From positions 1-21,146 of IMG/VR virus record IMGVR_UViG_3300035698_007406: a DNA stretch of 21,146 nucleotides; one strand, written 5' to 3'. Under the pieces are notes generated by a model. That model did not search any database and was not told the DNA's origin. It saw only the letters and a list, made by a program, of their open reading frames with translations. Of the stretch, positions 9,926 through 21,146 are shown piece after piece. Position numbers and translations under genes: made by a program. The DNA is from a virus. How positions within the stretch are numbered: position 1 is the first letter of the stretch; each line of letters opens with the position of its first letter.

Positions 9926-10516
9926 ATGAAAAAGTTGAATATGATTATTGCTGGAGTGCTTGTCGTTTTGACTAGTATTGCTTTGGCTGGAGATGGTGAC
10001 TTGTTTAGCGTTGGTGATGACACTAACTACTTCAAGGTGAATAGTGATGGTACGTTTGAATCGTCCGGGAGAGGGACTATTGCCGCATTGTCTGGTTTAG
10101 CGAAACTCACATCAGGTGTGATAAGTGCGGCTGTTGCTGGCGAGGACTATTTGGAACCTGATAGTATTGCCGGGAATCCTGCTGTTGTGGGTAGTGTAGC
10201 TACCTTGACTAATACAGTTGCGATCACATCAAAGGATGCTGGTGAAGTTACTCTTGCAGCGCGTCGCTTGATTCGTGTATGGCTTGCTGAAACTGCCTAT
10301 GGTGTGCCGAGTACCAATAACATTGTTACCCTCACGCTTTCTGGTGGAACAGCTATCGAGACTGTGACCGCTAATGCTGATTACATCTATCTTACGGCTG
10401 CGACTGGCATTGCAACTGCGGAAGTTGTAGGGACTGCTGCTGGCACGAACTATATCATGGTTGCTGACGGTGGATCTGTTACCAGTGCTGCTGTTGTGTT
10501 TGAAGCTGGTGAGTAA
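9926..10516 (+). CDS. Signal-peptide-bearing, beta-rich virion/fibre-like protein
   Basis: A 196-aa protein with a clear Sec-type signal peptide: Lys-Lys, a hydrophobic core (MIIAGVLVVLTSIALA), and a predicted cleavage after ALA before GDGD. The following section (FKVNSDGTFESSGRGT and LAKLTSGVISAAVAGEDYLE) resembles low-complexity linker modules common in phage tail fibres. The C-terminal half (RVWLAETAYGVPSTNN to the end) looks like a small Thr/Ala-rich beta domain of the kind attached to phage structural proteins. No lipobox is present. A TAGGAG site with 6-nt spacing supports the start. Location between coat gene and adaptor candidate suggests a virion or receptor-contact role; why it would be exported is unclear. 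Confidence 0.75.
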   Translation: MKKLNMIIAGVLVVLTSIALAGDGDLFSVGDDTNYFKVNSDGTFESSGRGTIAALSGLAKLTSGVISAAVAGEDYLEPDSIAGNPAVVGSVATLTNTVAITSKDAGEVTLAARRLIRVWLAETAYGVPSTNNIVTLTLSGGTAIETVTANADYIYLTAATGIATAEVVGTAAGTNYIMVADGGSVTSAAVVFEAGE

Positions 10517-10528
10517 GGAGGATTTATA

Positions 10529-10936
10529 ATGACAAAGTATATTTGTCTTCTACTCCTGATATGCGGAACTGCATTGGCTGCTCCTAACCAGATCGTGCTG
10601 TCGGTTTCGACTGATACGAATGGAATAGGGGCAGCAACTCAGCTTGATCTTACCGGGAAGATTGACACAATCAATGCTTCTGTCCTTGATGGTACAACCA
10701 CAGGAACATTGACTATTGCGTATGCTCCTCTGTATATGAGCGACGTGAACCTAGCTACGAACGCCGTGGTAGCGTCTAAGACGTTTCGCCCAAGGGTTGA
10801 TGCGACTGACGTTGCTGGAGCCGCTTTAACGGATGATACGCCTGTTATGTATTCGTTGTTTGAGAATGATGTCACGGTTAGTGTGACAAATGCTGCTGCT
10901 TCGTCCGTATGGCGGGTAGTTATAATTACAGAATAG
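10529..10936 (+). CDS. Signal-peptide-bearing small beta-rich protein
   Basis: A 135-aa protein with an excellent AAGGAGG ribosome-binding site (7-nt spacing). It begins with a short signal peptide (MTKYICLLLLICGTALA), with likely cleavage after ALA. The Cys residues within it do not form a lipobox, because LLIC lacks the small residue before Cys. The mature part alternates hydrophobic and polar residues (VLSVSTDTNGIGAATQLDL and YAPLYMSDVNLATNAVVASK) and ends in a strand (WRVVIITE). It is most simply a small secreted or virion-associated beta-sandwich. I recognise no named family. Two consecutive genes with signal peptides make the export signal unlikely to be an artefact. Confidence 0.7.
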   Translation: MTKYICLLLLICGTALAAPNQIVLSVSTDTNGIGAATQLDLTGKIDTINASVLDGTTTGTLTIAYAPLYMSDVNLATNAVVASKTFRPRVDATDVAGAALTDDTPVMYSLFENDVTVSVTNAAASSVWRVVIITE

Positions 10937-10945
10937 AGGTTTGAT

Positions 10946-11533
10946 ATGGCTTTCAATGATGCTCCTTATGCGTGGTTTGGACTAGGGTATGACCTGACTT
11001 CCAGTGTGATTGGTCTTGAGACAATTACTGCTGGAGTTGCGGCTATTGATGAGGCTACGGTTGTTGCTGCAACTGATGTCATTACTGTTTCGTCTGCTCA
11101 TTATTTAGAGATTGGCGATAAGGTTCAGTTTACGACTACAGATACGTTGCCTTCGGGTTTAGCGGCATCGACGGATTACTATGTGTTGACAATCCCAAGT
11201 ACAACTACATTAACTGTTTCGGCTAGTTCTGGCGGGACAGTAGTTGACATTACTGACACAGGAACCGGAACGCATTCAATTATGCGTTATCCTACTCTTG
11301 AAGAAGTTACCGATGTGGAAGCAAATGCTACTGATGGTGATTTTCGTAAAGTCATGTATGGTATTTGCGAAAAGGTTGCTAACGCATGGTACAGGAAAGA
11401 TAGTGATGATCGTCCCGCAAAAATGACTGTAAGTAGGTCTACATCTACAGACGAAACTACTGGATTTCAAACAAAACAGTATGTATTCCGGTTTACGACT
11501 GAAGTGGTATCTGCTGAAGTTGTGTCTGAGTAA
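10946..11533 (+). CDS. Beta-rich phage virion protein, tail/adaptor-region module
   Basis: A 195-aa protein without a signal peptide. Residues about 40-113 match a module common in phage structural proteins, a strand-rich unit of the form ITVSSAHYLEIGDKVQFTT, then LPSGLAASTDYYVLTIP, then a TGTGTHSI ending. The C-terminal half (DGDFRKVMYGICEKVANAWY, then KMTVSRSTS, and a final YVFRFTTEVVSAEVVSE) resembles the helical and strand ending often found on the same module in tail proteins. A short AGAGG site precedes ATG 10946. A minor virion protein is the likely role. It is followed directly by an intrinsic terminator. Confidence 0.7.
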   Translation: MAFNDAPYAWFGLGYDLTSSVIGLETITAGVAAIDEATVVAATDVITVSSAHYLEIGDKVQFTTTDTLPSGLAASTDYYVLTIPSTTTLTVSASSGGTVVDITDTGTGTHSIMRYPTLEEVTDVEANATDGDFRKVMYGICEKVANAWYRKDSDDRPAKMTVSRSTSTDETTGFQTKQYVFRFTTEVVSAEVVSE

Positions 11534-11558
11534 TAGGGTGGAATTAACAAAATAACGT

Positions 11559-11587
11559 GCCGCCTGAAAATGGCGGTATTGTTTTTT
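11559..11587 (+). terminator. Rho-independent terminator
   Basis: A GC-rich stem (GCCGCC paired with GGCGGT, 6 bp with a terminal G-T wobble) encloses a 7-nt loop (TGAAAAT), followed by ATTGTTTTTT. This is the classical intrinsic terminator layout. It lies 26 nt after the stop codon at 11531-11533 and ends just before the RBS of the adaptor candidate, so it should end or attenuate the 9926-11533 message. Confidence 0.85.
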
Positions 11588-11598
11588 CAGGAGTTATA

Positions 11599-11949
11599 AT
11601 GAACCTTGCCGACTTGTATGATGATGTATGCACGATGACTTCGAGTATGCAGACGCCGGAAGTAGAGCGTCAATTTCTTTCTTCTTTAAAAATGGTTGTA
11701 TATGACCTTAACCAACGTGTCAATGAGAGTGTCATTCCTCCTACATTTGTAAGTGCTGTTAACATCGGGTTTGAGGATTATTGTGATTCATGCTTTCTAG
11801 CAGGTGTCAAATATTATGGTCAACGCTTAGGCGCATGGGCGCAAGACCCTGACAGTGAGAGTTATAAGCTATACCAATTGGAATTGCAAAAGGTTGTAGG
11901 TCGAGCAATCAACGCGCAAAGTGATTTCGGTACCAGAAACGAGGAATAA
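11599..11949 (+). CDS. Putative head-tail adaptor/connector protein
   Basis: A 116-aa protein beginning at ATG 11599, preceded by CAGGAG with 5-nt spacing. A longer open frame from GTG 11557 would have to read through the terminator hairpin and lacks an RBS, so it is rejected. The architecture is a helix (FLSSLKMVVYDLNQRVN), a short strand (PPTFVSAVNI), then a long helix (about residues 50-100, with FLAGVKYYGQRLGAWAQD, then YQLELQKVVGRAI). Helix-strand-long-helix in a small protein downstream of the coat gene is how several podovirus and siphovirus adaptors bound to the portal look. The assignment is by architecture and place only; a small structural protein of another kind is possible. Confidence 0.55.
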   Translation: MNLADLYDDVCTMTSSMQTPEVERQFLSSLKMVVYDLNQRVNESVIPPTFVSAVNIGFEDYCDSCFLAGVKYYGQRLGAWAQDPDSESYKLYQLELQKVVGRAINAQSDFGTRNEE

Positions 11950-11951
11950 CC

Positions 11952-14900
11952 ATGCCATTTGATTTTGATTATCGGAAGGTTCTTGAGTTATCGAAAGCTC
12001 ATATTAGAGGCAATACCGCCAAAGGACTAATTGGCGATAAGGATGTTCAAGTCTATTATGATGTTCCGCTTGGTGCTGGAGAACAGGCTATTGCTTGGCT
12101 GCAAGATAATAGACAGACTATTCGTAATGCGGTTATTGATTTCCAGAAACTAGATGATGTATGGCGTTCTGTTGAGATCAAGAGCCAGCAGAGTACGTCC
12201 AATAAGGAAGGCGTTGTAATTGCTCAGACGTTCCGGCAAGGATTCCTGGAGAGCCTTACAAAAGGCGATGAGATAGACTTCACTGAGGCAAGACTTGTCG
12301 GAGGCAATGGATGGCATGAAGGAAGCGTCAATGGTGATTTTCCTGAAGGTGATACCGAAGCAGATAGCGCAAATCCACAAAAGTATTTCTTGGTTGAATG
12401 GCACGGCGTAAACCCGGAGAAGACAGAAGAAATACGTTCTGCTTTAAGAGATACGGCAGCAAGTGGTATTACTCCAGTTATAAATGGAGAGTCTTACGGT
12501 TCCGGGTTCTATGTTCTTGATGTAATAGATGAGATTCCTTCGTCGTGGACTGATTCTGATAAATCGTCAACGATAACTGTACTGCTAGGGAAACCACGAT
12601 TCAATCTTCAAGGATGGACGGCATACGATACGCTTGTTGCATCTAAGATTTATTGGTTATTTGATGTTCCCGTATATGTTGCTCAATCATTGATAAACAT
12701 CTACAACAAGACCAAGGGGGCAACGACTTCAGTATCGGCTCCAGATGAGCGTGGTTTGGTAAATATCACAGTAAGAAATAAACCTGATTCAGAAGATGAA
12801 ACCGATTTTATAGCATCTAAATCTTGTGCATATTTTGTAAAGGAAACATTTTATTATGGTATAGCTGCTCCTGTGGATGCTCCTGACAACACGATGGGAA
12901 TCACATACGAAGCTAATTTTAGACTTGATCCAAATACCGGACTTTATTCGGGAACGATAACACAGAAAGTTAGGCAAACCCTTCATGTCCCGTCTTATCG
13001 AAGTGATAATACTCATGCCAATTATACCGAAGTGGAACGCTGGGAAGGTGCATATTTAATTGGCGGCGATTACAAAAAGGCTGTTCTTTCGGTAAATGGT
13101 TCTGGCGAGATTGTATCAGATACAGATACAAGTATCACATTGCCTACTAATTCTATTTCTGCTGGTAATACATGGAGAGTAGATAAACGAGTCAATGATG
13201 ATTGCACGTATGATCTCGCTGTAAGTGATAAGACAGAAAAAGAGATTGATGACCAACAATATGATGTTTCTGATTCTAATATTGCATCTTCTAGTGCTGT
13301 AGATAAATTGAATCAAGAATCCGCAAGTGTTAGTTTGACTGCGGGTGCAAATGAAGTATTGAGGGCTAGTGTCCGGTACAACAAAGAAACTGCTCTTTAT
13401 GATATTGTCGAAGAAACGACTGTTTCAAAAAGTACAGAGGGACAGGATATAGAAATTAGTGCTGCTGCAACCAAAACGGTCGCCAGAAGCATACAGACCG
13501 ATACAAAGCCGTCAGACCCCACACAAGAGGCTGGCAAGGTCAAAGCAACCCAATGGGTGGAGACAGAGTTTGAAGGTCGTTACAGAGCATCTGAGAGCGT
13601 TGTAGAGGTTAATGACCAGACAGCATCTAGTGGAAGTGCTAGAGCCGATCATACTTCAACCGTAACGACTAATACTCAGAAGGCAGCACAGGAAATAGTA
13701 GAAGCCGAGGAAGGCAAAGTTGTCAACATTCAGAACCGTCCGACAGAGGCGGGGATGTTTGCCGTTTCTAAAGAGGTTATCACACCGATCAATCAAGCTA
13801 CTTCAAGTGAAGAAGTTAGGGCAGATTGGACATCCGAGACCAATACAGAGACTCAGGCAGATGAAAAAGCGGAAGCGACACCCATTGATGGCAAGATAGT
13901 CCAGACGCAGAACCGTCCTACTGAATTTGGTAAATACGGAACATCTAAAACGGTTATAACTCCACAGTTACAGACCGTGACGCACGATAGTTCTGTTAGG
14001 GCTGACCAAACTGCATCTAAGGTTATATCGACAAATGCTGAAGAAAAGGTTGATGCAACTGCCATTGAGGGAAAGGTTGTCACTGCTTCAAGCAGAGAGA
14101 ATGAATTCGGCAAATTCGACAATCAGACCGAAACGGTAACTCCAATCAATCAACCTAATGTTGATGGTAACGTAAGCGCAGCGTCAATATCGGTGATAAC
14201 AAAAGCATCTCAGGCAGACGCCGAAGTGGAAGCAACCGCCGAAGATGGCAAGGTTGTAAGAGTTTCCAACCAAAGTACAGAGTTTGGAAAGGTACGGACG
14301 AATAAAGAGGTTATTACGCCAATAAATCAGTCTGCTGCTGGAGGTCAAGCTAGGGCTGATAGGACATCTGTTGTAACCAAACAGACTCAGGCTGACGAAG
14401 AAGTTGAAGCAACAGCAGAAGAAGGAAAAATTGTTGTTGTTGATAACGATGAAACAGAGTTCGGTAAGCATAGAACACGAAAAGAAGTCATTACTCCTGT
14501 AGATCAAACCGGGGAATCAGGACAGGCTAGAGCGGATCGTACAAGTTCAACGACTACGCATACGCAGAGCGATACAGTTGCTAGTGATGATCCGATAGAT
14601 GGCTTTATAATCAATGCACAAAGTCAACCTACCGAGTTTGGCAAATACAAGACAAGCAGAGAGGTTATCACTCCCGCCAATCAGTCTTCGGATAGTTCCG
14701 AGATTAGGGCGGATAGGACATCGGCAACAGAATTAAATACTCAGGCAAATTCAGAAGCAGATGATACCCCTGTTGCCGGAAAAATCATTCAGACACAGAA
14801 TAGACCTACTGAATTCGGCAAATATGGTACGCAGCGAACAGTCATAACGCCATTGCCACAGACTACCACTCATATATCGTCTTCCCGTTCAGATCAGAAG

Positions 14901-17165
14901 TCTGACCGAACTATTGCTATAAATGCTGCTGCCAAGCAAGACGCAACTGCTCAAGATGGTAAAGTTGTTAATGCACAGAGCAAAGAGAATGAATTTGGAA
15001 AGTTTGACAATACCCTAGAGGTGGTCACACCGTATGACCAGACCGGGGAACAGAAAGAACTTAGATCAGATCATACCAGTGAAACGGTAACACATACTCA
15101 AACCGATGATTCTCCTGACGATGATCCTATAGATGGTTTCGTGATACAAACTTCTGAAGCTCCTACAGAATTTGGAAAGAAACGGACACAACGTACCGTA
15201 ATAACACCGATTAACCAAACCAATGATTCCACTACAGAGTCTTCATCTGAATCGGTATCAGAGGAGGTCAACACACAAGCTGATGATGTATTGCCTGATG
15301 CTGTTGAAGTTGAGGGTGAAATCAATGAAGTTCAGAATGTAGAAACTGAGTTCGGCAAATTCCGCACTACTGACCGCACTAGAACCACAAAAGATCAGAC
15401 TGGGGAAGCTACGGAGAGTAGAGCAGATCGAACCTCAGAAACAGAAACGCATACACAAGCTGATGTCGAAGCTGATGATTCGCCTATTGAGGGTAAAATC
15501 GTACAGGCTAATTCCCGGCCTACAGAGTTTGGTAAGTTTGCGACACAGAAGACGATAATAACTCCAGAAGATCAGGTTGGAATATTTGAGGAAGAATCTG
15601 CTTCCGAAGGCATAGATGAAACTGTTCATACACAGGCTGACGAAGTATTGACTTCACCTGTTGAAACTGTAGGCAAAGTTATAGATCGTCGAAGTAATCC
15701 GACAGAGTTTGGCAAATACCACACTACAGATAGGATAAGAACCGGAAAAGAGCAGACGGTGTCACACATTTCAGAATCAAGGGCAGACCAATCTACTGAT
15801 AGAGAATGGGAGCGTAATGTTGCTGCTAAAGCTGATGCTACGCCAATCGAAGGTAAGATTGTTCGTGCATCATCGCAAGAGAATGAATTCGGTTTATTCA
15901 ATAATACCAAAGAGACTATCACGCCAGAAGACCAGGATGGGTCAACTCGTCATGAAGATCATTCAGAGACATCTACAGAAACGCTTCACACGCAAGCTGA
16001 CGATGCTCTAGCAGATCCTTCAGAAACACTTGGGGAGATCATTGACAGAACTTCTATTCCTACAGAGTTTGGTAAGTATAAAACAACAGACAGATCCCGG
16101 ACAGCCAAAACTCAGACGGTGGAACATGTCTCAAAAGCGGATGCTAGTCAAACGATTGCTAGAACGTGGGAACACAACGCAGAATCCAAAGCGGAAGCGA
16201 CCAGTGTTGAGGGAAAGGTGGTATCTACTCGCTCGCAAGAAAATGAGTTTGGGCGATTTGATAATGAGAAGGTAGAAGTAACCCCCATTAATCAACCTGC
16301 TTCCGGTAATTCAGAAAACCATTTATCCTCAACAAACGTAACTACGCATACCCAAAATGATGCACCAGAGGATGCTACGGCTGGTACTGGTGAATCGGTT
16401 GAAGCTCAGAACATTCCTACAGACTTTGGCAAATACCGGACAATTAAGTCAGTATCTACCGGGAATGAAATCACCGTAACAGACTATGATCAAAATGGAT
16501 TAGCAGCACTTGTTACAGATCGGACATTCAATGGCGACAAGATAAGTTCTGTTCCTGTTCGTGGGGAAGGTGAGATTGTCCGACAGACACAAGTACCAAC
16601 CAACTTCAAAGACAAATACAATATCATTGAATCCACAGAGATAGGTCAACCGTGGACTACCGGATGGATTGAGTATGATTCCAGAAAAGGAGCAGAATCA
16701 GTAATTCGATGGGGCAATCAGGCAGAATCTTACGGAACTGCTATTGCCGCATCATTAACCAATGACACATCAAATTCCTTTGGTCATCAGAAAAACCGTT
16801 TTGGATTATGGGATGGAGTGTCGTCTAAAGTTGCTGTTGGTAGTGGATCAACTTTCTGGCGTAGTACGGTGGACGTAGAGACCGAAGAGCCTAAACAAGA
16901 AAGACAAAAAACAACTAAAGATGAAGATCTTGTCGAAATCTACAAAGATGAAGAACGGACAGTAACAAGAATATACAAAAGTGTTATTACACAGACTTTT
17001 GCAGAAGCAGAACAAACAAAGCGCATCTATGTGGGTGTTGCGAGTGAGGATATGGTTGCTATTGGAAGTCCAACTATTGCTAGAATAACAGATTCGGGAC
17101 GAATAGGTTGGTATGTTGAAGCCTATTTTAGAGAATATGGTCCATGGACAGAGGTAACTCCATGA
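11952..17165 (+). CDS. Giant repeat protein, probable phage fibre
   Basis: A 1737-aa protein, about a quarter of the window. Residues 1-400 form a non-repeated head with mixed strands and helices. From about 405 a period of roughly 60 residues is visible in degenerate form, and residues 537-1548 hold 17 recognisable units of 59-60 residues. Each contains a G-K-[IV]-[IV] strand, a P-T-E-F-G-K-[YF] turn, a V-I-T-P strand, and a Thr/Ser/Asp-rich linker with RADxTS and TQAD. The last 180 residues return to non-repeated sequence rich in aromatic residues (including FGLWDG and FWRSTVDVE). There are no coiled coils or transmembrane helices, arguing against a tape measure. A long virion fibre or host-contact filament fits best. 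The start overlaps nothing and has a GAGG site. Confidence 0.8.
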   Translation: MPFDFDYRKVLELSKAHIRGNTAKGLIGDKDVQVYYDVPLGAGEQAIAWLQDNRQTIRNAVIDFQKLDDVWRSVEIKSQQSTSNKEGVVIAQTFRQGFLESLTKGDEIDFTEARLVGGNGWHEGSVNGDFPEGDTEADSANPQKYFLVEWHGVNPEKTEEIRSALRDTAASGITPVINGESYGSGFYVLDVIDEIPSSWTDSDKSSTITVLLGKPRFNLQGWTAYDTLVASKIYWLFDVPVYVAQSLINIYNKTKGATTSVSAPDERGLVNITVRNKPDSEDETDFIASKSCAYFVKETFYYGIAAPVDAPDNTMGITYEANFRLDPNTGLYSGTITQKVRQTLHVPSYRSDNTHANYTEVERWEGAYLIGGDYKKAVLSVNGSGEIVSDTDTSITLPTNSISAGNTWRVDKRVNDDCTYDLAVSDKTEKEIDDQQYDVSDSNIASSSAVDKLNQESASVSLTAGANEVLRASVRYNKETALYDIVEETTVSKSTEGQDIEISAAATKTVARSIQTDTKPSDPTQEAGKVKATQWVETEFEGRYRASESVVEVNDQTASSGSARADHTSTVTTNTQKAAQEIVEAEEGKVVNIQNRPTEAGMFAVSKEVITPINQATSSEEVRADWTSETNTETQADEKAEATPIDGKIVQTQNRPTEFGKYGTSKTVITPQLQTVTHDSSVRADQTASKVISTNAEEKVDATAIEGKVVTASSRENEFGKFDNQTETVTPINQPNVDGNVSAASISVITKASQADAEVEATAEDGKVVRVSNQSTEFGKVRTNKEVITPINQSAAGGQARADRTSVVTKQTQADEEVEATAEEGKIVVVDNDETEFGKHRTRKEVITPVDQTGESGQARADRTSSTTTHTQSDTVASDDPIDGFIINAQSQPTEFGKYKTSREVITPANQSSDSSEIRADRTSATELNTQANSEADDTPVAGKIIQTQNRPTEFGKYGTQRTVITPLPQTTTHISSSRSDQKSDRTIAINAAAKQDATAQDGKVVNAQSKENEFGKFDNTLEVVTPYDQTGEQKELRSDHTSETVTHTQTDDSPDDDPIDGFVIQTSEAPTEFGKKRTQRTVITPINQTNDSTTESSSESVSEEVNTQADDVLPDAVEVEGEINEVQNVETEFGKFRTTDRTRTTKDQTGEATESRADRTSETETHTQADVEADDSPIEGKIVQANSRPTEFGKFATQKTIITPEDQVGIFEEESASEGIDETVHTQADEVLTSPVETVGKVIDRRSNPTEFGKYHTTDRIRTGKEQTVSHISESRADQSTDREWERNVAAKADATPIEGKIVRASSQENEFGLFNNTKETITPEDQDGSTRHEDHSETSTETLHTQADDALADPSETLGEIIDRTSIPTEFGKYKTTDRSRTAKTQTVEHVSKADASQTIARTWEHNAESKAEATSVEGKVVSTRSQENEFGRFDNEKVEVTPINQPASGNSENHLSSTNVTTHTQNDAPEDATAGTGESVEAQNIPTDFGKYRTIKSVSTGNEITVTDYDQNGLAALVTDRTFNGDKISSVPVRGEGEIVRQTQVPTNFKDKYNIIESTEIGQPWTTGWIEYDSRKGAESVIRWGNQAESYGTAIAASLTNDTSNSFGHQKNRFGLWDGVSSKVAVGSGSTFWRSTVDVETEEPKQERQKTTKDEDLVEIYKDEERTVTRIYKSVITQTFAEAEQTKRIYVGVASEDMVAIGSPTIARITDSGRIGWYVEAYFREYGPWTEVTP
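13560..16595 (+). repeat. Array of 17 protein-level repeats within the giant fibre gene
   Basis: Seventeen consecutive units of 59-60 codons, from residue 537 to 1548, with consensus features PTEFGKYxTxxxVITPxxQ, RADxTS, TQAD and a P-[IV]-[ED]-GK-[IV]-[IV] closing strand. At DNA level the copies differ at many synonymous positions (for example GAG/GAA, TTT/TTC, GGT/GGC/GGA in the EFGK core), so it is an old array held by protein selection rather than a fresh slippage expansion. Weaker units extend upstream from about residue 405, and the motif begins again (PTNF, with FGLW further on) downstream. Confidence 0.9.
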
Positions 17166-17836
17166 CCGCTGAATTATTAGAACTATTTGAAGCACTTGCC
17201 AGAAAGATTGCAAAAGAAGAGATTGCGGAACAGCAATTTAAGTCTATTGCTTCGCAAGATTCGGATTCATCTATGCACCAAGTATCCATTCCGTTTCCTG
17301 TAGATTCCATCCAAGCTCCAGTGCCGCTCAAACGACCACATCCATTTAGAATTATCGTATTGTTTGAAGAAGGTGCAGTATCGGCAGTAAAGGTTAGACA
17401 TGGTGCATTTGTCCTTAATGACTCAGATGGCACTCATTTGTTTATAGGGACTGAAGGATCGGATGATGAATCTGATTATACGTTAATAATGGTTCCAGAA
17501 GGCGTCACCACTGGAGATAAATCTATATGGGCTATTCTTGATAAGAGTTCAACTCCATATACATCAAGCATTTCAACTATCAAACCTTCCGATAGCATAG
17601 ATACTTATGCTGTATGTGTAGGAAAAGTGACTTCAGCAGGGGCAATCCAACAGTATGTCTTTGGGCATATCCCCGTATTTGGCAGTGAAAATACGACGGT
17701 CAGGGGTGAAAAGAAATTATACAAAGTGATCGAATTAAGAGCGTATGATCCTGATGGTGGTACATTGCGCGCGCCCGGTGATGAGCAATCTGGGGATGAT
17801 TTATTCAGAACGTGGGATTATCCGAGGCAACGATGA
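17162..17836 (+). CDS. Hypothetical protein following giant fibre gene
   Basis: A 224-aa protein chosen to start at ATG 17162, which overlaps the upstream stop (ATGA) and has a GAGGT site with 6-nt spacing. The upstream ATG 17144 would overlap the RBS. Residues 1-30 form an acidic and basic helix (LLELFEALARKIAKEEIAEQ). The middle has strands (FRIIVLFEEGAVSAVKVRHG and HLFIGTEG), and the C-terminus is Gly/Asp-rich (YDPDGGTLRAPGDEQSGDDL). No named domain is recognised and no signal peptide is present. Its location and translational coupling on both sides suggest it works with the two large flanking fibre-like proteins, perhaps as a chaperone or minor tail part, but this is inference. Confidence 0.7.
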   Translation: MTAELLELFEALARKIAKEEIAEQQFKSIASQDSDSSMHQVSIPFPVDSIQAPVPLKRPHPFRIIVLFEEGAVSAVKVRHGAFVLNDSDGTHLFIGTEGSDDESDYTLIMVPEGVTTGDKSIWAILDKSSTPYTSSISTIKPSDSIDTYAVCVGKVTSAGAIQQYVFGHIPVFGSENTTVRGEKKLYKVIELRAYDPDGGTLRAPGDEQSGDDLFRTWDYPRQR

Positions 17837-17905
17837 AACATTTAATACTGCTAATGTTTACAACTTTGTCTGCATTTGGAGCATGGCAATCGGGGGATGA
17901 TTTAT
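17785..17905 (+). repeat. Pair of 20-bp near-identical direct repeats flanking a gene junction
   Basis: GCAATCTGGGGATGATTTAT at 17785-17804 and GCAATCGGGGGATGATTTAT at 17886-17905 match at 19 of 20 bases, 101 bp apart. The first lies near the 3' end of the 17162 gene and the second just after the signal-peptide region of the next gene. They are read in different frames of the window but both encode QSGDDL. Confidence 0.7.
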
Positions 17906-20442
17906 CTTCATCTACGAATTGGCTCCCTCTTACTCAATCATTACGGACTCATAGCGTTATGAACTTCCATGATGATGACACTCCGTGGTTTGGTGCTAAT
18001 TATTGGCTATCCAGAACTACTCAGAGTAACGCACTCCCAAACATTGATCCATCTTGGTATAATACGATTCTTTTCCCTACAAATGGTGGGTGGGTATGGC
18101 ACGACGGTTTTACAGACATGGCATATGATGAAGATGCTACCGTAGTTGCTTCCAGAATCTATCCATTTGATACCAAGGATGGTCAGGCTCCCTATATCTC
18201 ATGGTATGTTTATGAAGCACAACGGCACGTCACAAATTGGTTTAATGAGGGGAGAGTAGTTCTTCATGGAACTGAGACAAACTGGAATAGCATATCGAAT
18301 ACAGGAGGAAGCAATCTGACTCTTCAAGCTGCACTAGAATTAACGGGCATGACCAATGGTGTACGTCGTACCTATGATATATCCGCTACCAATGTGATCC
18401 TTATTACTGGAAGCACAACACCAGACATGTCAGGTACATATATATGGTCAAGTCCATCTTATTACAATGAGGATACTACCAATAAATATATTGGATGTGA
18501 AAATCCTGAGGATGAAAACAAGAGATACCACTTAGTATATAATGCACCAGCTACCTATTACGTATGGACAAATAATCTTGTTGATATTAGCATATTTAAC
18601 CCTATTCTTGCAACCCTAGCAGCAGGAACGGCTTATGGAGAGGTTGAATACGGTTTTGTATTCACAAATGGATGGGCTAAATCTGGCGACTTTACGGGTT
18701 ACTGGCATAGAGATGATTTAACTAATCTTTTGTCAGTAATGAAATCGGGATGGTATAAGCCGGATAAAGATGGTGACGAGTATCATGGTGAAGATGTTAA
18801 CCATTTTCTGACAATTCCAAATGAATCAATTCCTTTATATCTTCGCAGTGGTGGTTTCCTCAAATATGCCGATTGGAATTTTCTATCTTCTATGGGGGGA
18901 TCGACAACGAAAGTGGATTTAATTGTGACAAATGCAATCTCTCCAGACTGTAATGGGAACTATCTTGAGGGATACCAATATGATTATGGTCGGCTAGATG
19001 GACTTGCCTTCATAGAACAGCCAGTAAGCAATATATGGATACTCTATGGAGAAAGCAATTATGTATCAGTAGCGGATAGTTCTAATACGGTCGCTAATGG
19101 TGATTACACTTATATTGATGAATCAAATTACACCAATGCAAATGCTTGGCATATTCGGGAAGATGAAGATATGTGTTACCTTTATCCTGACAATCAGGAC
19201 TATGCTGGCTATCTGATAGCAGTCACCGGGGCGGTTTCTCCAGACATTACGGGTGGGTGGGAGCTTTATTCGACACCACATCAAGGAGAATGGAAGGTTG
19301 TCGTCACCAATGGCAATAGCTATATACTAAGATCAACAAAACTGACATTTTCTGCTAATTTGGTTAATGGAACGGGTGAATATTCAACAACAAATGTATT
19401 CTGGCCTGACGATCCGTCCGAGTGGGGAACTTACGAAAGAGGAGATTTTGTATGGTCTTTCCTTGGTTGGACTTACAGTATATCAGATGGAGATGTTAGT
19501 TGGGCGAATGGCTTGACAGATGATCCATTTGCTACATATACCTTTACAACTGGCGGAACTATATGGTCTGGTACTGCCACAGTAGAAAGATGGGTAAAAT
19601 CTGGCACGAATCTATTTGGTGCTTATACACCCGATCCGAATAGTCTAGTAACTGGCACAGCATATTTGATTGATACTTCCTTCAAGGGATACACAAATGA
19701 TGTGCTGGATGGGGAATATGGTGGTGTAGGAGCATATTCAGGAGACACTTCGACAGTCCATGCAGCATACTTTTACCGTGATGGTACAGTCACAGGTGTT
19801 TATGAAAATATAGGTATAGCCACCTCGACAGGAACCACTGAAGTTCTGGAAGGACCGGGATGGATTGATTGGACTGGATATTCAGAAGCAACGTGGGATA
19901 ATGCTATTGGTTATATATCGGACAACTTTTCAACACTTCTATCATCTAATCAGGCAGCTATGGTATTGCCTACAGCAGACTTTACCTATACGGCAGGAAA
20001 AGGAAACCATGATAGACGTCTTTCAGCGTCAATAAGTACTAGAACGTCTGTTCCCACAAATCCTTGTCCAACAAATGTGTTTAAGTCAATAGTTCTAGCG
20101 ATAGATGAATATGAGTCTGTGGTTTCTCCTGCTTGCCGTGTAGCGCACAAGTTTGGAGATGGGACAAGCATTACTTCCGGCAGACAACTTCCTTCGATTA
20201 CTAATGTATGCCTATTCACAGAGAATGGATATTACACCAATACTTATGGTCTGGTCTATTCCGATGGAAATACATTTCCGTATGTTGATTTCCGAATATG
20301 CAAGTTTCCATCAGACACGACTTACTTCAAATATTACTTTAGTGGATTAACGAATAACCCTTCCGGCGATGACTATCCACAGCCAGATGCGGGAATAGAA
20401 ACCAATTTTGTAGGATGGGTGATGCAGTTCGATATTAATTAA
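17833..20442 (+). CDS. Large signal-peptide protein with repeated beta modules, putative tail fibre/adhesin
   Basis: An 869-aa protein with start ATG 17833 (ATGA overlap, GAGG 5 nt upstream); the longer frame from 17812 lacks a better RBS. It has a signal peptide (MKHLILLMFTTLSAFG, cleavage near AFG-AWQ). The mature chain is rich in Trp, Tyr, Asn and Thr. A recurring module of the form [IV]T(G/N)xxxPDxxGxY/W occurs near residues 187-245 (ITGSTTPDMSGTY), 362-406 (VTNAISPDCNGNY), a weak copy near 411-450 (VANGDYTY), and 462-505 (VTGAVSPDITGGW). These resemble the small NGTY-type beta units in metagenomic phage adhesins, and the last third is non-repeated. Role as a receptor-binding or surface protein is inferred from place and composition. 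Confidence 0.75.
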   Translation: MKHLILLMFTTLSAFGAWQSGDDLSSSTNWLPLTQSLRTHSVMNFHDDDTPWFGANYWLSRTTQSNALPNIDPSWYNTILFPTNGGWVWHDGFTDMAYDEDATVVASRIYPFDTKDGQAPYISWYVYEAQRHVTNWFNEGRVVLHGTETNWNSISNTGGSNLTLQAALELTGMTNGVRRTYDISATNVILITGSTTPDMSGTYIWSSPSYYNEDTTNKYIGCENPEDENKRYHLVYNAPATYYVWTNNLVDISIFNPILATLAAGTAYGEVEYGFVFTNGWAKSGDFTGYWHRDDLTNLLSVMKSGWYKPDKDGDEYHGEDVNHFLTIPNESIPLYLRSGGFLKYADWNFLSSMGGSTTKVDLIVTNAISPDCNGNYLEGYQYDYGRLDGLAFIEQPVSNIWILYGESNYVSVADSSNTVANGDYTYIDESNYTNANAWHIREDEDMCYLYPDNQDYAGYLIAVTGAVSPDITGGWELYSTPHQGEWKVVVTNGNSYILRSTKLTFSANLVNGTGEYSTTNVFWPDDPSEWGTYERGDFVWSFLGWTYSISDGDVSWANGLTDDPFATYTFTTGGTIWSGTATVERWVKSGTNLFGAYTPDPNSLVTGTAYLIDTSFKGYTNDVLDGEYGGVGAYSGDTSTVHAAYFYRDGTVTGVYENIGIATSTGTTEVLEGPGWIDWTGYSEATWDNAIGYISDNFSTLLSSNQAAMVLPTADFTYTAGKGNHDRRLSASISTRTSVPTNPCPTNVFKSIVLAIDEYESVVSPACRVAHKFGDGTSITSGRQLPSITNVCLFTENGYYTNTYGLVYSDGNTFPYVDFRICKFPSDTTYFKYYFSGLTNNPSGDDYPQPDAGIETNFVGWVMQFDIN

Positions 20443-20499: not shown

Positions 20500-21146
20500 A
20501 TGGCATGGAATAAAGGTTTACTGCAACGCGGAATATCAATGTTAGACCCAAGGCCGTTTAGAGATGTTATGTTTGGAGATGATATACCTGATCTTAACGC
20601 AGCCCGTACTCGTCCTGCAACAAGTGATTCAGCATTAGAACTGAAGGCTAGGCTTAAACAAGCGATGCAGGGAGAGTCTGGATCTATGCTTACGCAAGAA
20701 GACAAACAAGCTATGGGTGATGTTCCGTCGGATTCTCAAGATCCAACAGGAAATCCAGCAGCCCGTACTCGTCCCGCAACAAGTACAAGAGCATTAGAAC
20801 TGAAGGCTAGGCTTGAACAAATAATGCAGGGAGAGTCTGGATCTATGCTTACGCAAGAAGACAAACAAGCTATGGGTGATGTTCCGTCGGATTCTCAAGA
20901 TCCAACAGGAAGTCCAGCAGTACCTATTAGTATTATTGATTCACCTTCAGCGCGAGATACACTTCAATCAATAGCTGAAACTCAAAAAGGAACTGGTATA
21001 TTTACAACTGTTGATGGGGAAAAACGAGAATGGCAACGACCTAACCTACAGACACCTGAATTAAAGGCAGGAGAAGTTTATGATCCCCGGCTTGGCAGAG
21101 TGATGAAGGCTGGAGATGCAATCGAGATGCTGAAACAAAGATCAGA
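20500..21146 (+). CDS. Hypothetical virion-region protein with tandem repeat, 3'-truncated
   Basis: ATG 20500 has an AAAGGAGA site with 7-nt spacing and opens a frame that remains open to the right edge (215 codons seen). The product begins MAWNKGLLQRGISMLDPRP and contains two tandem 53-residue copies of a Gln/Asp/Ser-rich segment (with LELKARL, MLTQEDKQAMGD, SDSQDPTG). It continues with a more ordered charged region (EVYDPRLGRVMKAGDAIEM). There is no signal peptide. In podovirus-like gene order, proteins after the fibres are often internal or ejection proteins, which its hydrophilic, repeat-bearing sequence would allow, but no motif confirms this. The rest of the gene lies outside the window. 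Confidence 0.75.
   Translation, partial: MAWNKGLLQRGISMLDPRPFRDVMFGDDIPDLNAARTRPATSDSALELKARLKQAMQGESGSMLTQEDKQAMGDVPSDSQDPTGNPAARTRPATSTRALELKARLEQIMQGESGSMLTQEDKQAMGDVPSDSQDPTGSPAVPISIIDSPSARDTLQSIAETQKGTGIFTTVDGEKREWQRPNLQTPELKAGEVYDPRLGRVMKAGDAIEMLKQRS
20599..20916 (+). repeat. Two tandem 159-bp in-frame copies inside the last gene
   Basis: Copy 1 spans 20599-20757 and copy 2 spans 20758-20916, with exactly 53 codons each. I count 11 mismatches over 159 bp (about 93 percent identity), including an 88-nt identical stretch. Five codons change the amino acid (DS to TR, K to E, A to I, N to S) and one is synonymous. The high identity points to a recent duplication. Confidence 0.92.

Follow-up and report, generated by a model that had tools for sequence, protein, structure and literature searches.

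Stalks built from tandem beta domains have precedents both in phages and on the surface of bacteria. In crAss-like phages, small BACON beta domains are arrayed in tandem, up to eight per ORF, and these arrays are tail-associated in three lineages (PMC6949934). The less conserved C-terminus of the BACON arrays accompanies the proposal that they form a host-binding stalk (PMC6949934), an argument that runs parallel to the fibre reading developed here. On bacterial surfaces, the Periscope proteins (SasG G5/E, Rib and SHIRT arrays) use tandem folded modules as a projecting stalk, and near-identical repeat DNA is linked in them to changes in repeat number (PMC8201768). Our literature search found no direct precedent concerning repeat number in a phage fibre.

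The locus analysed here lies in a virus record of 21,146 bases, taken as a whole and called the window below. We consider it fairly probable that the product of its repeat gene forms a long fibre or stalk on the virion of an uncultured phage whose tail is probably short, and that this protein has an N-terminal anchor, a rod of 16 modules and a C-terminal tip. The parts of the gene are as follows.

11952-17165, plus strand: repeat-protein gene, 1737 aa, a single open frame without a signal peptide.
11952-13616, plus strand: N-terminal region, aa 1-555, putative virion anchor, ~26% identical to relatives L002 and L004.
13617-16469, plus strand: array of 16 full beta modules, d1-d16 (Q-T...VITPxx), 59-60 aa each, aa 556-1506, from unit alignment, shuffles, phase test and AlphaFold2 (AF2).
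13971-14150 (d3), 14859-15038 (d8), 15753-15932 (d13) and 16113-16292 (d15), plus strand: type II modules, from clustering and tree.
15216-15395 (d10), 15573-15752 (d12) and 15933-16112 (d14), plus strand: type III modules, from clustering and tree.
16470-17162, plus strand: C-terminal region, aa 1507-1737, where the repeats fade out, starting with a degenerate hairpin; putative tip.

The array is far beyond chance. Self-similarity at the best lag is 0.69, against -0.33 +/- 0.03 in 500 shuffles (maximum -0.20). The earlier note had described 17 near-contiguous units of 59-60 residues occupying 1012 residues, and in its phase aa 525-1536 are indeed 17 consecutive units of that length and exactly 1012 residues; the array is the same one, but the position given for it, 13560-16595, is shifted by 36 bases from the 13524-16559 that we find. 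Two glycines are invariant in all 17 units, and the core motif residues E, F, T and Q are each present in 16. Tandem Repeats Finder did not detect the array at the DNA level, which argues that the module copies in the window are old. Protein identity among d1-d16 ranges from 17 to 64%. Sampled close unit pairs share 55-65% of their residues, with identities of 0.62-0.75 at codon positions 1-2 and 0.28-0.37 at position 3; since agreement is concentrated at the first two positions and the third is near-random, selection at the protein level has maintained the sequence of the array. The array lacks cysteine and has a net charge of -79, and an exposed stalk would therefore fit its composition.

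Covariation within the array redefines the module. Each unit in the original phase joins an AB half (GKIV...TEFGK...VITP) to a CD half (QT...RADRTS...TQAD...). The similarity of CD halves follows that of the AB halves one unit further on (r = 0.65, Mantel p = 0.0002) and much more weakly that of the AB half of their own unit (r = 0.25, p = 0.02); among six offsets compared, the +1 offset stands clearly apart from the rest. Because CD covaries with the AB half that follows it, the inherited module is C-D-A-B, running from Q-T to VITPxx. The unit first drawn, which began at EFGK, is thus offset from the evolutionary module by half a unit, and it had been described as two strand-like segments with a Thr/Ser/Asp-rich linker, a linker for which two further strands are predicted, making four per period.

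Clustering of the modules yields type I (d1, d2, d4-d7, d9 and d11), types II and III as listed above, and d16, an odd module apart from all three. Types II and III each have their own one-residue insertion, at different places, and this accounts for the alternation between 59 and 60 aa. In the tree, type III occupies one side of a branch (support 95/87), type II falls together with the modules of the relatives introduced below (100/99), and type I is the remainder and not a supported clade; as the types were assigned by clustering the same sequences, the tree supports them and is no independent discovery.

For a stretch of three to five units, the earlier note had set a beta structure against a disordered chain. 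We gave AF2 four units as a monomer, with an alignment made of non-overlapping stretches of the same array plus the relatives. The best model (mean pLDDT 82.9, pTM 0.55) is all-beta and helix-free and places four strands in each period, and so bears out the beta structure in one model of five, the other four having pLDDT 45-55. A Foldseek search with this model returned no PDB entry at E 0.001 (best E 0.06). It did return BFVD entry A0A516MBI3, part of a long viral protein that carries no name (E 9e-4, probability 1.00, TM 0.37 by query length, yet 12% identity), and two pieces of that protein are within the first three rows. The structural aligner VIA placed single Ig domains on model residues 28-87, 87-147 and 148-207, with Z of 4.4-5.5 and rmsd of 3.3-3.7 Å over 58-60 residues in the single-domain rows, a likeness for which a common beta arrangement may suffice. 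The periods so matched agree in phase with the covariation of the subtypes, an independent line of evidence. We rejected these matches as homology, the list being mostly antibody domains, and read them solely as "small beta-sandwich-like".

These weak per-period matches point to beads on a chain more than to a single continuous fibre, and small beads of this kind account for the AF2 model no less well than a continuous beta fibre does. Most known phage fibres are trimers, however, and the repeats might instead intertwine three chains as a single continuous beta fibre, in the manner of triple-stranded phage fibre shafts. The low content of large hydrophobic residues (Leu 1.4%, Tyr 0.9%) would suit such an intertwined shaft, and the poor quality of four of the five monomer models also speaks for it. 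Against it, the one confident monomer model has compact Ig-like periods, and the module types were inherited as whole four-strand blocks; an interlocked shaft seems to us rather unlikely.

The repeat had been said to belong to no named family, and our searches agree: there is no credible sequence match in Pfam, PHROGs, NCBIfam or PDB sequences. Nor did the 1737-aa protein as a whole receive a fibre-family assignment from any of these four sources, and the want of a PHROG or Pfam tail family weakens the fibre reading, as does the confidence of AF2 in only one of five models of the units and its low confidence in the N-terminal region (pLDDT 33). Low-scoring matches to VirD1, FKBP-like_N and TPP_enzyme_M were below cut-off and biologically unrelated. 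The BACON profile matched neither the full-length protein at E up to 1 nor the units at E up to 10, and the Ig, Big and FN3 families gave no sequence match on the modules. By tblastn, 50,697 phage records and 72,556 plasmids held no relative of the repeat protein; an N-domain match in Pseudoalteromonas phage Slicky01 (E 0.04) lies inside its terminase gene and was judged to be chance. Pattern scans of GTDB genomes with the module and N-domain alignments, a limited test, also returned no relative. Within the collections searched, the repeat was thus found only in virus contigs, an outcome that the earlier note had named as support for its claim, with the reach of the genome searches limited by their reliance on patterns. 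The module family is unnamed and would add to the parts available for long phage stalks.

Relatives were found in only two viral contigs, IMGVR_UViG_3300031224_000001 (40.5 kb) and IMGVR_UViG_3300012178_000009 (33.6 kb). In the part of the repeat gene that both contain, the two are 99.6% identical and therefore count as one independent relative. Both contigs break inside the array, one of them having ends that overlap exactly over 102 bases, so that neither copy number nor its variation can be observed in the relatives. Their modules, where compared, are 94-99% identical in DNA and group with type II, a near-identity that fits recent expansion or homogenisation. In the window, type II modules lie nearer to the modules of the relative than to the neighbouring types I and III. 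Either the module types predate the split of the window and relative phages, or a module moved between them. No further shared genes were detected between the window and the stretches of the relative that we compared.

The two ends of the protein have fared differently. The homologous part of the N-terminal region, ~aa 61-422, is 26% identical to L002 and L004 over ~390 aa (E ~1e-17 to 1e-20), and the last 31 residues of the region form an AB hairpin like those of the repeats. The C-terminal region shows no credible similarity to its counterpart in the one independent relative compared. A conserved N-domain with a dissimilar C-terminal region is the usual pattern for fibres. This contrast favours the fibre reading, as does the lack of any other obvious fibre gene in the stretches of the relative that were read. 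The C-terminal dissimilarity may reflect divergence rather than exchange.

The setting of the gene in the window points the same way, and includes three further features.

11557-11589, plus strand: terminator-like hairpin with a T-run, preceding the putative fibre genes, from a consensus scan in which the number found is about the chance expectation (shuffles).
11599-11949, plus strand: small ORF directly upstream, ending 2 bases before the repeat gene (ORF list, sequence).
17144-17836, plus strand: downstream ORF of 230 aa, its first 22 bases shared with the end of the repeat gene (ORF list).

Terminase and portal genes lie upstream of the repeat gene, as does a gene whose capsid product weakly resembles that of Pelagibacter phage HTVC023P. 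Also upstream, at 10946-11533, is a 195-aa protein with a small domain common to several tail-fibre and baseplate PHROGs. A position downstream of these four genes favours the fibre reading. The terminase and capsid resemblances, together with the lack of an obvious tape-measure or tail-tube gene among the ORFs of window and relative, indicate that the phage is probably short-tailed. No relatives of the window's capsid or portal proteins were seen in the viral contigs, and the terminase relatives L010 and L011 have no comparable repeat protein in the stretch examined. The repeat gene has an SD-like GAGGA ahead of its ATG. Neither the small ORF upstream nor the downstream ORF has a family match. 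The listed GTG start of the small ORF (11557-11949) sits in the terminator-like hairpin, and AGGAG precedes ATG 11599, which is probably the real start.

The same setting bears on the possibility that the product belongs to the virion without being a tail fibre; it might be a whisker, a fibre on the head or an elongated piece of a short tail. The gene comes after the head genes, and its N-domain matches no known family that would assign an attachment site. The domain that the nearby protein shares with tail-fibre PHROGs argues for the tail, however, and the C-terminal region is dissimilar, as in receptor-binding proteins, which makes a virion protein of this other sort improbable in our estimate.

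Several other observations concern the two genomes more broadly. ORFs 9926-10516, 10529-10936 and 17833-20442 in the virion-gene block have signal-peptide-like hydrophobic starts, which is unusual for phage structural genes, and their products may be secreted or surface-displayed. The last ORF of the window contains an in-frame tandem duplication (20599-20920; 159 bases, 2.0 copies, 93% match). The relative carries an integrase-like gene, recognised from sequence, and is probably temperate. It also encodes a 2145-aa protein (L003:3221-9658) with DnaJ, sigma-70 region 2 and LPD38 domains and with DPFAGHEIVNADD repeats at its start; this may be an injected polyvalent protein carrying a sigma factor. 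Different genes occupy the same place in the two otherwise near-identical phages (L002:5477-7130 and L004:3402-5469): one site has BspA-type leucine-rich repeats and a sulfotransferase, the other a set of other genes, among them one for a repeat-rich protein, and the whole looks like a variable cargo locus.

The genes just upstream in the relative are cargo- or lysis-like (leucine-rich repeats, sulfotransferase, lipoproteins, hydrolase), which would agree with a repeat protein that is not part of the virion at all but a repetitive beta scaffold, cytoplasmic or host-modifying. Sequence inspection of the 1737-aa protein found no hydrophobic N-terminus or signal peptide, which argues that it is made in the cytoplasm and also counts against this alternative, together with the virion-gene neighbourhood in the window and a length and beta-module build typical of stalks. 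We regard a non-virion protein as highly improbable.

Under the fibre reading, the N-terminal region (~aa 1-430) would anchor the protein to the particle, presumably at the tail. Behind it, the 16 four-stranded modules (C-D-A-B, ~60 aa) would be joined head to tail into an elongated rod or bead string, acidic and without cysteine, alone or as an oligomer, spanning by our own estimate ~40-55 nm at 2.5-3.5 nm per module. The C-terminal 230 residues would form the tip that meets the host and may bind its receptor. Duplication of modules could lengthen or shorten the array and, in this way, control the length of the fibre. The earlier note had likewise proposed that copy number could set fibre length, and that the protein may be the virus's chief organelle of host contact.

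The array resembles both the BACON and the Periscope stalks and is a member of neither, because it lacks the profile match, the surface anchoring and the high identity within the window. Like the BACON arrays, it is a phage-encoded tandem array of small beta domains; unlike them, it gives no BACON profile match, and it is built from 16 copies of a 60-aa four-strand module in three types. The Ig-like domains of phage structural proteins are likewise small all-beta modules, and each period here aligns weakly with one Ig domain, whereas the module of the window is ~60 aa long with four strands and has no Ig, Big or FN3 sequence match. High DNA identity between repeats, as in the Periscope proteins, is found in the relative contigs only; the modules of the window are just 17-64% identical in protein. 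Moreover, there is no bacterial cell-surface anchor, and the gene lies in a virus record and encodes no signal peptide. It is tempting, if speculative and on balance unlikely, to see a phage counterpart of the Periscope proteins: a virion stalk of a new 60-residue beta module, its length changed by recombination between modules, with types older than the split of distant phages and arranged to tune stiffness or binding. The two phages, with their homologous N-domains, offer a natural comparison, the array of one being old and diverged and that of the other homogeneous, apparently through recent expansion. Together the two arrays make it a testable question in phages whether repeat number sets the reach of a fibre.
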